Of a stretch of 64,000 bases of DNA, positions 31,995-55,175 are shown one piece after another. This DNA is from Lysobacter sp. BMK333-48F3 (GTDB taxonomy: Bacteria; Pseudomonadota; Gammaproteobacteria; Xanthomonadales; Xanthomonadaceae), in the NCBI RefSeq assembly GCF_019733395.1, contig NZ_JAIHOO010000001.1:4216894-4280893 (forward strand), read 5' to 3'. The translations under genes were made by a program, and so were the position numbers. The notes under the pieces are model-generated. The model saw nothing but the letters and a program-made list of their open reading frames with translations. It ran no database searches and was not told the origin of the DNA. Position 1 is the stretch's first letter; every line of letters begins with the position of its first letter.

Positions 31995-32079
31995 CGTCGT
32001 TCCCGCGAAAGCGGGAACCCAGGGCTTCATCGCGACCGCGCCGTGAAGTCTCTGGATCCCCGCCTTCGCGGGGACGACG
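31995..32079. repeat. short inverted-repeat element, nuclease-free relative of the 53.4-kb unit
   Basis: The left arm starts CGTCGTTCCCGCGAAAGCGG (31995-32014) and runs to 32024. The right arm (about 32050-32079) is its near reverse complement. A short interior ends GTGAAGTCTCTGG (32043-32055). Each arm is itself a TTCCCGC/GCGGGAA-type hairpin. It is the same layout as 53378-53749 but without the GIY-YIG gene, and has one TGAAGTCTC (32044-32052) where the larger unit has two. Confidence 0.85.
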
Positions 32080-51641: not shown

Positions 51642-52016
51642 ATGCCGCACCTGACCCTGCACTACACTGCCAACCTCGCCGGCTTCGACGCCGACGCCGC
51701 GTTGGCGACGCTCAACCGCGTCCTCGCCGACAGCGGCCATTTCGACGAAGCCTCGATCAAGAGCCGGGCCCTGCGCCTGGATCACTACCGCATCGGCACC
51801 GCCGACGCCGGCCGCGGTTTCGTCCATGCCCAGCTCAAGATCCTGCCGGGCCGCGACGCCGCGGTGCGCGCCGCCTTGTCGCAGGCCGTGCTCGACGCGC
51901 TGCGCGCCCGACTGCCGGCCTCGGCCGGCGCGGCCGAATTCCAACTCTGCGTCGAAGTCGACGAGATCGTCGCCGACGCCTACCGCAAACACGTACTCGC
52001 TCCGGACCCGCTCTGA
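51642..52016 (+). CDS. CHMI-like tautomerase (5-carboxymethyl-2-hydroxymuconate isomerase family)
   Basis: A 124-residue tautomerase-superfamily protein with the catalytic N-terminal proline (MPHLTLHYTANLAG). SRALRLDHYRIGTADAGRGFVHAQLKILPGR and AEFQLCVEVDEI match CHMI/HpaF. No homoprotocatechuate genes are present, so in this operon it may act on 4-oxalocrotonate or another muconate intermediate. That reassignment is inference. It is 4 bp before kynU. Confidence 0.85.
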   Translation: MPHLTLHYTANLAGFDADAALATLNRVLADSGHFDEASIKSRALRLDHYRIGTADAGRGFVHAQLKILPGRDAAVRAALSQAVLDALRARLPASAGAAEFQLCVEVDEIVADAYRKHVLAPDPL

Positions 52017-52020
52017 CCCC

Positions 52021-53307
52021 ATGACCGACCTGCATTCCGCGGCCCACGCCGCCGCCCTGGACGCCGCCGATCCGTTGCCGACCCTGCGCGAGCAGTTCCT
52101 GGTCCCGCGCCACGGCGGCGCCGAACAGGCCTACTTCGTCGGCAACTCGCTCGGCCTGCAGCCGCGCGGCGCCCGCGCCCATGTCGAGGAAGTGCTGGAC
52201 AAGTGGGCGACCGAAGCGGTCGAAGGCCACTTCACCGGCCAGGCGCAGTGGATGCCCTATCACGAACTGGTGCGCGAACCGCTGGCGCGGCTGGTCGGCG
52301 CGCAGCCGCAGGAAGTGGTGGCGATGAATTCGCTGACCGCCAACCTGCACCTGATGATGGTCAGCTTCTACCGCCCGACCCGCGAACGCCCGGCGATCCT
52401 GATCGAGGCCGGCAGCTTTCCGTCCGACCGCTACGCGATGGCCTCGCAGATCGCTTTCCACGGCTTCGACCCGGCCGTCGACCTGATCGAGCTGGAGCCC
52501 GACCGTCCCGGCGGCCTGATCTCGATGGAACGCATCGAGCGCGCCATCGCCGAGCACGGCCCGCGCCTGGCCCTGGTGCTGTGGCCGGGCGTGCAGTACC
52601 GCACTGGGCAAGCCTTCGACCTGGCCGAAATCGCCCGCCTCGCCCACGCCCAGGGCGCGTTGTGCGGCTTCGACCTGGCCCACGGCGTCGGCAACCTGGA
52701 TCTGCGCCTGCACGACAGCGGCACCGATTTCGCGGTCTGGTGCCACTACAAGTACGTCAACGCCGGCCCCGGCGCGGTCGCCGGCTGCTTCGTCCACGAG
52801 CGCCACGCCGGCACCGACCGGCCGCGCTTCGCCGGCTGGTGGGGCCACCAGGCCGCGACCCGCTTCCGCATGGGGCCGGAGTTCGTGCCGACTCTCGGCG
52901 CCGAAGGCTGGCAGCTCAGCAACCCGCCGATCCTCGGCCTGGCGCCGCTGCGCGCCTCGCTGGAGCTGTTCGACCGGATCGGCATGGCCGCGCTGCGCGA
53001 CAAGTCGCTGCGCCTGACCAGCTACCTGGAGCGACTGATCCGCGCGCGCCTGGCGCAGACCCTCGAGATCGTGACCCCGGCCGATCCTACCCAGCGCGGC
53101 TGCCAGCTCTCGCTGCGGGTCATCGGCGGCCGCGGCCTGGTCGGCCGCGAAGCCGGCCGCGCCCTGTTCGACTACCTCGCCGCCCAGGGCGTGCTCGGCG
53201 ACTGGCGCGAACCGGACGTGATCCGGATCTCGCCGGCGCCGTTGTACAACACCCATGCCGATATCGCACGGTTCGTGCAGGCAGTGGAGGATTGGCAGGG
53301 GAGCTGA
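52021..53307 (+). CDS. kynU: kynureninase
   Basis: PLP enzyme (428 residues) cleaving kynurenine or 3-hydroxykynurenine to (3-hydroxy)anthranilate and alanine. Family blocks are YFVGNSLGLQP, ALVLWPGVQYRTGQAFDL, CGFDLAHGVGNLDL, the PLP-lysine motif VWCHYKYVNAGPGAVAGCFVHE and GWWGHQAATRFRMGPEF. It starts 4 bp after the CHMI-like gene and is the last gene before the inverted-repeat element. Confidence 0.97.
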   Translation: MTDLHSAAHAAALDAADPLPTLREQFLVPRHGGAEQAYFVGNSLGLQPRGARAHVEEVLDKWATEAVEGHFTGQAQWMPYHELVREPLARLVGAQPQEVVAMNSLTANLHLMMVSFYRPTRERPAILIEAGSFPSDRYAMASQIAFHGFDPAVDLIELEPDRPGGLISMERIERAIAEHGPRLALVLWPGVQYRTGQAFDLAEIARLAHAQGALCGFDLAHGVGNLDLRLHDSGTDFAVWCHYKYVNAGPGAVAGCFVHERHAGTDRPRFAGWWGHQAATRFRMGPEFVPTLGAEGWQLSNPPILGLAPLRASLELFDRIGMAALRDKSLRLTSYLERLIRARLAQTLEIVTPADPTQRGCQLSLRVIGGRGLVGREAGRALFDYLAAQGVLGDWREPDVIRISPAPLYNTHADIARFVQAVEDWQGS

Positions 53308-53377: not shown

Positions 53378-53749
53378 CGTCATTCCCGCGAAGGCGGGAA
53401 TCCAGAGCGAGGTCGTAGCGTGAAGTCTCCCGCGGTCTACCTGCTGGCCAGCGCAAAACGCGGCACCCTCTACATCGGAGCGACCTCGAACCTGATTCAG
53501 CGGGTGTGGCAACATCGGAATCATGCGGCGGACGGATTCAGCAACCGCTACGACGTCACCCGCCTGGTTTGGTACGAGCAGCACGAAACGATGGAAAGCG
53601 CCATTCTTCGCGAAAAACAGCTGAAGAAGTGGAATCGGCAATGGAAGATCGGTCTGATCGAAGAAAGCAACCCAGACTGGCGGGACCTATGGCAAGACAT
53701 CGCAAGTTCCGGCTGAAGTCTCTGGATTCCCGCCTTCGCGGGAATGACG
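53378..53749. mobile_element. 372-bp unit: perfect 30-bp hairpin inverted repeats around a GIY-YIG gene
   Basis: The left end (53378-53407) and right end (53720-53749) are exact 30-bp reverse complements. Each end is itself a hairpin (TTCCCGC-GAAG-GCGGGAA). Between them lies only the GIY-YIG gene, flanked by two direct copies of TGAAGTCTC (53421-53429 and 53714-53722). The first copy begins inside the GTG start codon and the second begins with the stop codon TGA. The unit sits between kynU and the kynurenine monooxygenase gene. A related short version without the gene is at 31995-32079. Treating it as a mobile or mobilised unit is inference from this structure. Confidence 0.75.
53420..53716 (+). 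CDS. GIY-YIG nuclease family protein (single domain)
   Basis: A 98-residue stand-alone GIY-YIG domain. VYLLASAKRGTLYIGATSNL is the GIY/YIG pair, LIQRVWQHRN carries the catalytic Arg and conserved His, and SAILREKQLKKWNRQWK contains the metal-binding Glu, so the active site looks complete. GTG start and TGA stop both lie inside copies of TGAAGTCTC. Such small proteins are usually annotated only as GIY-YIG nuclease family, with no known role. Here the enclosing perfect inverted repeats suggest it acts on, or moves with, those repeats. Confidence 0.93.
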   Translation: MKSPAVYLLASAKRGTLYIGATSNLIQRVWQHRNHAADGFSNRYDVTRLVWYEQHETMESAILREKQLKKWNRQWKIGLIEESNPDWRDLWQDIASSG

Positions 53750-53807: not shown

Positions 53808-55175
53808 TTGAACGTGTCTACCGACAAACACCTCACCATCATCGGCGCCGGCCTCGCCGGCGCCCTGCTCGCCACCCTGCTCGCCCGCCGCGGCTGGCAG
53901 GTCGACGTGTACGAGAAGCGCGGCGATCCGCGCCAGCAGGGCTATCAGGGCGGGCGCTCGATCAACCTGGCCCTGGCCGAGCGCGGCCGCCACGCGCTGC
54001 GCCTGGCCGGCGCCGACGAGGCGGTGATGGCGCAGGCGGTGATGATGCGCGGGCGCATGGTCCACTTCCTCGACGGCCGCACCGACCTGCAGCGCTACGG
54101 TCGCGACGACAGCGAAGTGATCTGGTCGGTGCACCGCGGCGAGCTCAACCTGATCCTGTTGCAGATCGCCGAAGACGCCGGCGCGCAGCTGCATTTCCAC
54201 CGCGGCCTGCAGTCGGTCGATTTCGAACGCCGCCTGGCGGTGTTCCACGACGACCGCGACGACAGCGCGCACGAGATCGTGTTCAACAGCCTGGTCGGCG
54301 CCGACGGCGCCGGCTCGGCCCTGCGCGGGGCGATGAAGCAGGCCGTCGACCTGGGCGAGCGCACCGAGTTCCTCGGCCATTCCTACAAGGAGCTGGAGAT
54401 CCCGCCGGCCGCCGACGGCGGCTTCAGCATCGAGCCCAACGCCCTGCACATCTGGCCGCGCGGCCGCTACATGTGCATCGCCCTGCCCAACGACGAGCGC
54501 ACCTTCACCGTCACCCTGTTCCTGCCCAACCAGGGCGAGCCGGGCTTCGACACCGTGCGCAGCGGCGCCGATGCGCGGGCCTTGTTCGAACGCGACTTCG
54601 CCGATGCCCTGCCGCTGATTCCGCAACTGGAACAGGACTTCGAGCGCAACCCGACCGGCCTGTTGGCGACCTTGTACCTGGACCGCTGGCACCTGGACGA
54701 CCGCGCGGTGCTGCTCGGCGACGCCGCCCACGCGATGGTGCCGTTCCACGGCCAGGGCATGAACTGCGCGTTCGAAGACTGCGTCGCCCTGGCCGAGCGC
54801 CTGCTCGCCGACGACGACCGCGCCCGCGCCTTCGCCGATTTCCAGGCCCGGCGCCTGCCGAGCGCGCGCGCGATCCAGGCCATGGCGCTGGAGAACTACC
54901 TGGAGATGCGCGACCGCGTCGACGACGACGATTACCTGCTGCAGCGCGCCCTGGAGCGCGAGCTGGCCGAGCGCCACCCGGACCGGTTCATGCCGCGCTA
55001 CGCCATGGTCACCTTCCACCGCATGCCCTACGAGGTCGCCTTCGAGCGCGGCCAGCGCCAGCGCGAGCTGCTGGTCGAGCTGACCCGCGGCCACGACAGC
55101 CTGGCCAGCCTGGACTGGGATGCGGTCGACGCGACCGTGCGCGCGCGCCTGAGCCCGCTGCCCGCGGACGAGTGA
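53808..55175 (+). CDS. kmo: kynurenine 3-monooxygenase
   Basis: FAD monooxygenase (455 residues) hydroxylating kynurenine to 3-hydroxykynurenine. FAD-binding motifs are IIGAGLAGALLATLLARRGW and LLGDAAHAMVPFHGQGMNCAFEDC. GYQGGRSINLALAERGRHAL and the C-terminal helical region with PRYAMVTFHRMPYEVAFERG are specific to this group. The start is TTG at 53808 (an in-frame GTG at 53814 is possible); no ATG is available. The gap to kynU holds the GIY-YIG unit, which may have split the operon. Its stop is 4 bp before sbcB. Confidence 0.95.
   Translation: MNVSTDKHLTIIGAGLAGALLATLLARRGWQVDVYEKRGDPRQQGYQGGRSINLALAERGRHALRLAGADEAVMAQAVMMRGRMVHFLDGRTDLQRYGRDDSEVIWSVHRGELNLILLQIAEDAGAQLHFHRGLQSVDFERRLAVFHDDRDDSAHEIVFNSLVGADGAGSALRGAMKQAVDLGERTEFLGHSYKELEIPPAADGGFSIEPNALHIWPRGRYMCIALPNDERTFTVTLFLPNQGEPGFDTVRSGADARALFERDFADALPLIPQLEQDFERNPTGLLATLYLDRWHLDDRAVLLGDAAHAMVPFHGQGMNCAFEDCVALAERLLADDDRARAFADFQARRLPSARAIQAMALENYLEMRDRVDDDDYLLQRALERELAERHPDRFMPRYAMVTFHRMPYEVAFERGQRQRELLVELTRGHDSLASLDWDAVDATVRARLSPLPADE

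Follow-up and report, generated by a model that had tools for sequence, protein, structure and literature searches.

The closest described systems to the locus considered here are repetitive extragenic palindromes (REPs) and the enzymes associated with them. REP-associated tyrosine transposases (RAYTs) are described as single-copy, vertically inherited genes whose products duplicate REP dimers (REPINs) (available part of PMC8049555), and TnpA-REP genes as flanked by REPs with which they co-evolve (available part of PMC6006769). The REPs that carry a CGTC tag are said to 'apparently lack a dedicated transposase' (Di Nocera et al. 2013, PMC3733652); their family CGTC-1 is dRS3 in Neisseria and RPE-6 in Rickettsia, and the word GIY has no occurrence in the accessible portion of that paper. 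The subject of this work is a 372-bp unit in a 64,000-nucleotide stretch of Lysobacter sp. BMK333-48F3 (contig NZ_JAIHOO010000001.1; hereafter the window), in which two outward-facing CGTC REP hairpins enclose the gene of a small GIY-YIG protein, between a kynureninase open reading frame (ORF) and a flavin adenine dinucleotide (FAD) monooxygenase ORF. Sequence comparisons make it likely that the unit is a REP-associated nuclease system, in which the GIY-YIG endonuclease has the two hairpins as its own recognition sites and serves the maintenance or spread of REPINs, as a counterpart of the RAYT-REPIN system. The support at the sequence level consists of a tight physical link, matched end hairpins, a repeat number which follows the gene, and a joint evolution of the stem and the protein, with residue 70 at its centre.

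The hairpin-flanked nuclease gene

The initial annotation described the ends of the unit as exact reverse complements, each with a hairpin of its own, around a 98-residue GIY-YIG gene with an apparently complete active site, and this description was borne out. The arms are 100% complementary over 30 nt and separated by 312 nt. Each of them folds into an 8-bp stem with a 4-nt loop, and equal or better folds occur in 0/200 shuffles of the left arm and 1/200 of the right. The encoded protein matches the Pfam family PF01541 above its cut-off, and the presumably catalytic residues Y7, Y18, R28, E65 and N84 are invariant across 50 aligned family members. Its AlphaFold2 model has a mean pLDDT (predicted local distance difference test) of 92.6, and the ratio of nonsynonymous to synonymous substitution rates is 0.04-0.11 in 10 of 11 homologue pairs, these being the 10 that yielded a value. 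The start and stop codons were also placed inside copies of TGAAGTCTC; both positions are right (Table 1), and the fit at the 5′ end is probably a coincidence, because M-KSP is the start of the protein in no more than 5 of the 84 intact homologues. The 3′ copy is the end sequence common to the unit and the REPINs, and in the window TGAAGTCTC occurs once more, within a REPIN (32044-32052).

The association of the gene with hairpins was assessed in 247 genomes of the bacterial family of the window (Xanthomonadaceae). The protein is found in 79 of them, with a patchy distribution over 25 of 54 genera, a single genome giving as many as 5 match rows. From a total of about 119 rows, 90 were analysed as loci, mostly those with the best scores. 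CGTC hairpins facing outward are present at a distance of up to 260 bp on both sides in 65/90 loci, on one side in 19/90 and on neither in 6/90, which makes 84/90 with at least one, while the same detector finds them on either side of 0/30 YhbQ-like GIY-YIG genes of relatives (a mixture of REP-rich and REP-poor genomes). The counts include two distant, REP-free loci (L114, L123), which were also kept in the Lys-70/CCCGC repeat comparison below and excluded from those of CCGGC and CCAGC; six broken or odd loci were excluded from the trees, leaving 84 intact proteins. The nearest hairpins to the left and right share an identical 5-nt stem core in 64/65 loci, compared to a shuffled mean of 31.1 and maximum of 41 (10,000 shuffles), and the five main cores are CCCGC, CCGGC, CCAGC, CCTGC and CTCGC.

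The association extends beyond the family. A protein match is present in 111/398 genomes of Pseudomonadota at large. Among 73 named loci from many taxa (80, less 7 with a flank <200 bp), hairpins stand on both sides in 39, on one side in 21 and on neither in 13, and a best inverted repeat score >=16 is reached by 57 with their own flanks versus 22 with mismatched partners. Hairpins on both sides are also present in loci labelled Dehalococcoidia (L300), Nitrospirae (L337) and Deltaproteobacteria (L345), all three metagenome-assembled genomes whose labels may be wrong, and in a complete Planctomycetes genome (L316). Three Rhizobiaceae units (L145-L147) have another CGTC hairpin, with a longer stem.

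Several observations were made beside these counts. The Neisseria gonorrhoeae member (L142, L310) is 69% identical to the window protein and has dRS3-type REPs on both sides, 187-261 bp off, which is further than usual. In L039, L044, L054 and others, the reading frame extends into the right-hand REP and ends in C-termini such as GFPPSRE. In the Sinorhizobium meliloti Ak57 locus (L145), the intact unit is preceded in tandem by another, partial GIY-YIG fragment, itself between REPs (around 480-600); a further GIY-YIG gene is located between hflX and mazG. More distant GIY-YIG relatives in Cyanobacteriota and Bacteroidota, on plasmids of Planktothrix agardhii (L150) and Spirosoma oryzicola (L152), stand among hairpin repeats of the GTCATTCTGAG or GTCATCCCGAG type, hinting that the link may reach other repeat families. 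Four records labelled as plasmids (CP090106, NZ_CP104131, NZ_CP119140, NZ_AP026896), of 2.2-4.9 Mb, are probably mislabelled chromosomes; CP090106 carries rpsB, lexA and metG, and the other three are so judged from length alone.

Repeat number and dispersed dimers

The 5.2-Mb genome of the window (G000) contains 104 matches to a 23-nt core of the REP with <=3 mismatches, versus 0 for the reversed control; a 26-nt core at the same tolerance occurs 4 times in the window and not at all in 100 shuffles. Family-wide, the repeats were counted with the pattern GTCATNCCCGCNNNNGCGGGNAT. The median is 25 per genome in the 79 carriers of the gene and 0 in the 168 non-carriers, and at least 20 repeats are found in 43/79 and 2/168, respectively (p = 9e-28, which overstates independence because the genomes are related). 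Of the 20 genomes of the genus, the 15 with the gene have 12-191 matches to the REPIN-end pattern, compared to 0-11 in the 5 without it. The RAYT family PF01797 is found in 19 of these 20 genomes, including all 5 gene-less ones, and is not found in G642, which has 143 repeat matches; this distribution led to the rejection of a RAYT as the mover of the repeats. The proposal of the initial annotation, a REP with its own enzyme and a GIY-YIG nuclease in the place of a RAYT, is upheld by the flank counts, by the repeat number following the gene and by the covariation described below.

In the examined loci of G000, 20 REP pairs with tags outward were tallied, including the unit itself, this being the one dimer orientation counted. 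Their interiors measure 38-39 bp in 13 cases and 55 and 59 bp in 2. Of these 15 short-interior REPINs, 9 end exactly in GAAGTCTCTGGA, the 12-nt 3′ end of the unit, and 3 more do so with one mismatch. Such dispersed dimers have the ends of the unit together with a part of its subterminal sequence, as non-autonomous elements do with their source. A REPIN could possibly be an internal-deletion product of the unit via the two TGAAGTCTC copies; the unit and the REPINs have only the 3′ subterminal sequence in common. The orthologous sites in the gene-less genome G217, judged by eye, hold degenerate REPINs (L002, L016, L235) or none (the window REPIN, L010). When about 100 kb of Sinorhizobium Ak57 was compared with K101, 7 REP-like hairpins were seen in the former and 2 in the latter, and no REPIN insertion could be clearly recognised.

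Covariation of the enzyme and the hairpin

The stem class changes 13 times on the tree of the 84 intact proteins, compared to 34.1 times after shuffling, with 0/200 shuffles as low. The alignment column most informative on the stem class is residue 70 (1.40 bits versus 0.22 shuffled, 78 rows). In the family, CCCGC stems go with Lys in 47/48 cases, CCGGC with Glu in 9/13, CCAGC with Ala in 10/11, CCTGC with Ala in 3/3 and CTCGC with Arg or His in 3/3, which means that the identity of the residue follows the third base of the core (Lys for C, Glu for G, Ala for A). The model places it in the turn that joins helix 58-69 to helix 73-83, five positions C-terminal to the invariant E65.

A second table was compiled outside the family, after the residue-70 pattern had been noticed. 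It derives from 121 loci, 74 of which combine a hairpin with a loop of four bases and a residue that could be read; L303, L331 and L353 escaped the residue pattern, and the rest are without such a hairpin. N. gonorrhoeae is counted twice in this set, and family membership was taken from record titles and group codes. Lys accompanies CCCGC in 39/42 and Glu accompanies CCGGC in 12/17, with one Asp in addition; the small classes are CCAGC (Ser 2, Ala 1), CCTGC (Lys 2, Ala 1) and CTCGC (Lys 1). Residue 70 again ranks first in the combined 147 rows, with 0.97 excess bits and 0.47 for the next column. The stem is inferred to have changed 24 times; 12 of these events coincide with a change of residue class on the same branch, and 10 of the 12 obey the rule.

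The type of the unit is also reflected in the dispersed repeats of its genome. The CCCGC repeats, compared in those 63 of the 79 carriers for which an intact unit was fetched, have a median of 47 in the 41 genomes with a Lys-70 unit versus 2 in the 22 carriers of only other types (p 8e-8). The CCGGC repeats have a median of 37 with Glu or Asp units (9 genomes) versus 6.5 (52 genomes; p 0.005), and the CCAGC repeats of 14 with Ala, Val or Ser units (19 genomes) versus 1 (42 genomes; p 0.001).

An example of a joint change is provided by two loci upstream of yhdH, L080 (genome G223) and L118 (G235). Their upstream sequences are identical over 1769 bp and the downstream ones have 5 differences in 2051 bp, and the block between is replaced; it runs from the stop codon of the upstream gene into the nuclease gene (300 nt), of which the final 57 nt lie outside it. 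The exchanged coding parts (243 and 234 nt) have 163 identical positions. From L080 to L118, the hairpins change from CCAGC to CCGGC together with a change of residue 70 from Val to Glu.

Residence of the unit, alternative explanations and comparison with known systems

The features of the window are collected in Table 1. Two further GIY-YIG matches exist in the genome in addition to the unit protein (3 in all), one in a 678-aa frame, which from its length is probably UvrC, and one in a YhbQ-like gene. The closest named relatives of the unit protein are Lysobacter records. A defence or phage origin was rejected, the PADLOC (E 0.0011) and PHROGs (E 0.0014) matches being only weak, and weak Foldseek matches to other folds (superoxide dismutase, ERH) were disregarded.

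Table 1. Position of the unit, its parts and other features in the window
Feature	Coordinates	Strand	Basis or remark
Left CGTC-tagged REP	53378..53407	+	tag 53378-53381, stem 53382-53389/53394-53401, loop 53390-53393, tail CCAGAG; fits the CGTC-1 description in the available part of PMC3733652
Right REP, exact inverted copy, tag outward	53720..53749	-	arm comparison and folding
98-aa GIY-YIG nuclease, GTG start, REP-associated subfamily	53420..53716	+	PF01541 E 8.7e-15
Codon 70 (Lys), tracks third base of hairpin stem core	53627..53629	+	covariation analyses
TGAAGTCTC across stop codon, beginning of the 3′ subterminal TGAAGTCTCTGGAT common to dispersed REPINs	53714..53722	+	
Second TGAAGTCTC, across codons 1-4, probably coincidental	53421..53429	+	
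REPIN, two REPs with tags outward, 39-bp interior ending TGAAGTCTCTGGA	31995..32079	.	orthologous place in gene-less G217 has unrelated sequence
Upstream neighbour: ORF containing kynureninase	51826..53307	+	TIGR01814 E 9e-139
Downstream neighbour: FAD monooxygenase	53808..55175	+	named kmo in the initial annotation; NCBIfam matches all below cut-off

The junction of kynureninase and monooxygenase holds the unit in 22/90 loci, 9 of the same genus and 13 in genomes of other genera; both neighbours are within 50-220 bp in 21 of them, the exception being L090, with 1.4 kb to the monooxygenase. This site is used in 13/15 same-genus carriers, and the units of G643 and G644 are instead located upstream of yhdH. 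The region just upstream of yhdH (TIGR02823) is the second long-term site, in several genera, with 26/90 loci (L107 and the swapped pair are among them) at a distance of 26-276 bp, or 773 bp in L083; L259, L261 and L263 have their units there too. The kynureninase site has CCCGC or CCTGC types and the yhdH site CCAGC, CCGGC and CTCGC types. From these counts across genera, the units have long been resident at a small number of sites, a behaviour also described for RAYTs, and units of differing hairpin type can occupy the same site. A recent insertion at the kynureninase-monooxygenase junction is rejected on the same counts, and the description of the unit as a recently mobile one was not sustained. 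Mobility had been held to be unsupported should the gene keep one site in all relatives and its homologues elsewhere lack the repeats: most relatives having the gene do keep it at the same site, but the homologues elsewhere do carry repeats.

The occupancy of the junction is not universal, and the gene is absent from it in four same-genus genomes. In G116 and G217, which of the genomes searched have the most similar neighbour protein (96%), the unit is missing there and 2-3 exact repeats are present in the genome; in gene-less G015 a REP-like palindrome remains, and in G190 nothing recognisable is left. The junctions of G116 and G217 are inexact, for which reason a reading of precise excision or of a target site was abandoned, and no target duplication could be read at the empty junctions or at the orthologous REPIN sites in G217. 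Because other genera have the unit at this junction too, its loss is the simpler reading. In Sinorhizobium sp. K101, the place of the Ak57 unit is taken by a palindrome built from the outer arms of both hairpins, which would match the expected product of a deletion between the stems. Composite palindromes tagged with CGTC at either end are found repeatedly in the repeat lists of G022, G035, G018, G110 and G132 and in L092 and L156, and look like deletion scars between two REPs.

In the mechanism proposed for the unit, the enzyme would bind the REP hairpin, as an extruded cruciform or as a single-stranded hairpin at the replication fork, and nick or cut it. Repair or replication by the host might then copy or re-homogenise the REPINs, which would be non-autonomous dependants of the enzyme. 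The unit itself would mostly reside at few fixed sites, sometimes being lost, perhaps by deletion between its two hairpins, and sometimes exchanged as an allele. With somewhat less assurance, little above an even chance, this may be generalised to a CGTC REP superfamily, in Proteobacteria and beyond, recognised and multiplied by dedicated nucleases of about 95 residues, in a transposition-like process by an enzyme class without a covalent DNA intermediate, where a single residue would set the hairpin specificity by the code Lys-C, Glu-G and Ala-A/T.

The allelic swap at the yhdH site, with its nearly unchanged surroundings, also agrees with a homing-type selfish allele, whose nuclease cuts unit-free alleles and is copied in by recombination, the dispersed REPINs being by-products. 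The presence of three stem types at this one site in different genomes points in the same direction, as does the large protein divergence at a fixed site (the G138 unit is 61% identical to the window protein, and the neighbour protein 89%). Such an allele is nevertheless a doubtful explanation, as the hairpins flank the unit on both sides, with no single target interrupted, and hundreds of dispersed repeats are unexpected for a pure homing gene. SbcCD and Slx1 act on unusual DNA structures, and by this parallel the protein could be a housekeeping nuclease that tames the repeats, resolving their hairpins or cruciforms and protecting replication, while something else spreads them. This is unlikely: a protective enzyme needs neither its substrate at both ends of its gene nor hairpins that change with its specificity, the distribution of RAYTs differs from that of the repeats, the repeats look decayed in gene-less G217, and the gene is patchy among the family genomes. 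REPs moved by another enzyme might also flank an intergenic nuclease gene by chance, given that REPs of the same type are common in carriers, as the matches in G000 illustrate. Coincidence is very improbable in view of the unflanked control genes, the matched ends and the residue-stem covariation in two data sets.

Several points weigh against the interpretation as a REP-associated nuclease system. No new REPIN insertion was caught in the genome comparisons, so that active mobilisation is a putative step. The units are confined mainly to the two sites. REPs without a detected gene occur in G055 (31), G039 (28) and G127 (18), and G641, in which no family gene was found, has 11 REPIN-end matches, which may reflect a recent gene loss. 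The protein is short and its tree weakly resolved, leaving only 1 independent pair on well-supported branches, and residue 70 has exceptions, such as Lys with CCTGC in 2/3 cases outside the family. The counts for CCGGC and CCAGC specificity are weaker, with many exceptions and one nominally significant cross comparison (p 0.03). Part of the association between stem and protein may be lineage, because the non-CCCGC types except CCTGC sit mostly at the yhdH site. Finally, G223 and G235 carry both repeat types in similar number (CCAGC 74/73, CCGGC 143/140), as is expected if the swap is recent.

Among the known groups of GIY-YIG proteins, the stand-alone YhbQ/UPF0213 proteins resemble the unit protein in size and fold, with 1zg2 as the nearest PDB sequence (a remote profile match, E 1.6e-4), but are without REP flanks in 30/30 loci. 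In contrast to GIY-YIG homing endonucleases such as I-TevI, the unit has no intron or extra DNA-binding domain and is flanked by its own repeat rather than inserted in a target. Compared with the features of insertion sequences, it has several sites, two of them long-resident, one allelic swap and inexact empty junctions. The string 'palindrom' does not occur in the available part of the 2006 GIY-YIG survey (PMC1564403), nor do REPIN, dRS3, RAYT or GIY in that of a 2024 review of prokaryotic miniature inverted-repeat transposable elements (PMC10969869). Among the papers listed in a literature search without bioRxiv and most subscription journals, where an unseen report is possible, none had a title or abstract linking GIY-YIG to REPs.

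The window repeats are CGTC REPs. Like the CGTC-1 REPs of PMC3733652, in the part of that paper available, they have a CGTC tag, an 8-bp stem beginning with AT, a 4-nt loop, a CCA tail and dimers with the tags outside. The tag is unpaired and stands at one end, as the definition (CGTC, or TGTC/CCTC) demands, and the copies are numerous, with the 104 matches and 20 tags-outward pairs. The difference is that no dedicated enzyme is given in that text, whereas a GIY-YIG gene is regularly enclosed by CGTC REPs here. As these REPs, Neisseria dRS3 included, had no enzyme in the available part of their defining paper, the very small candidate, whose recognition code apparently lies in one residue, makes their origin directly testable, and a compact GIY-YIG protein with a readable hairpin specificity would, if confirmed, be of use in studying how particular DNA structures are recognised. 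With the RAYT/TnpA-REP genes and their REPINs (REPtrons), as far as the available parts of those sources describe them, the unit has in common a small REP-flanked enzyme gene, long residence, dispersed dimers of the same REP and the co-evolution of enzyme and REP. RAYTs are HUH-Y1 enzymes (PF01797) acting with GTAG REPs, whereas the present system combines a GIY-YIG protein (PF01541) with CGTC REPs; the unit is not a member of the RAYT-REPIN system, because the enzyme is unrelated, and if the proposed interpretation is true, REP systems have at least two origins, based on enzymes that are not related to each other.
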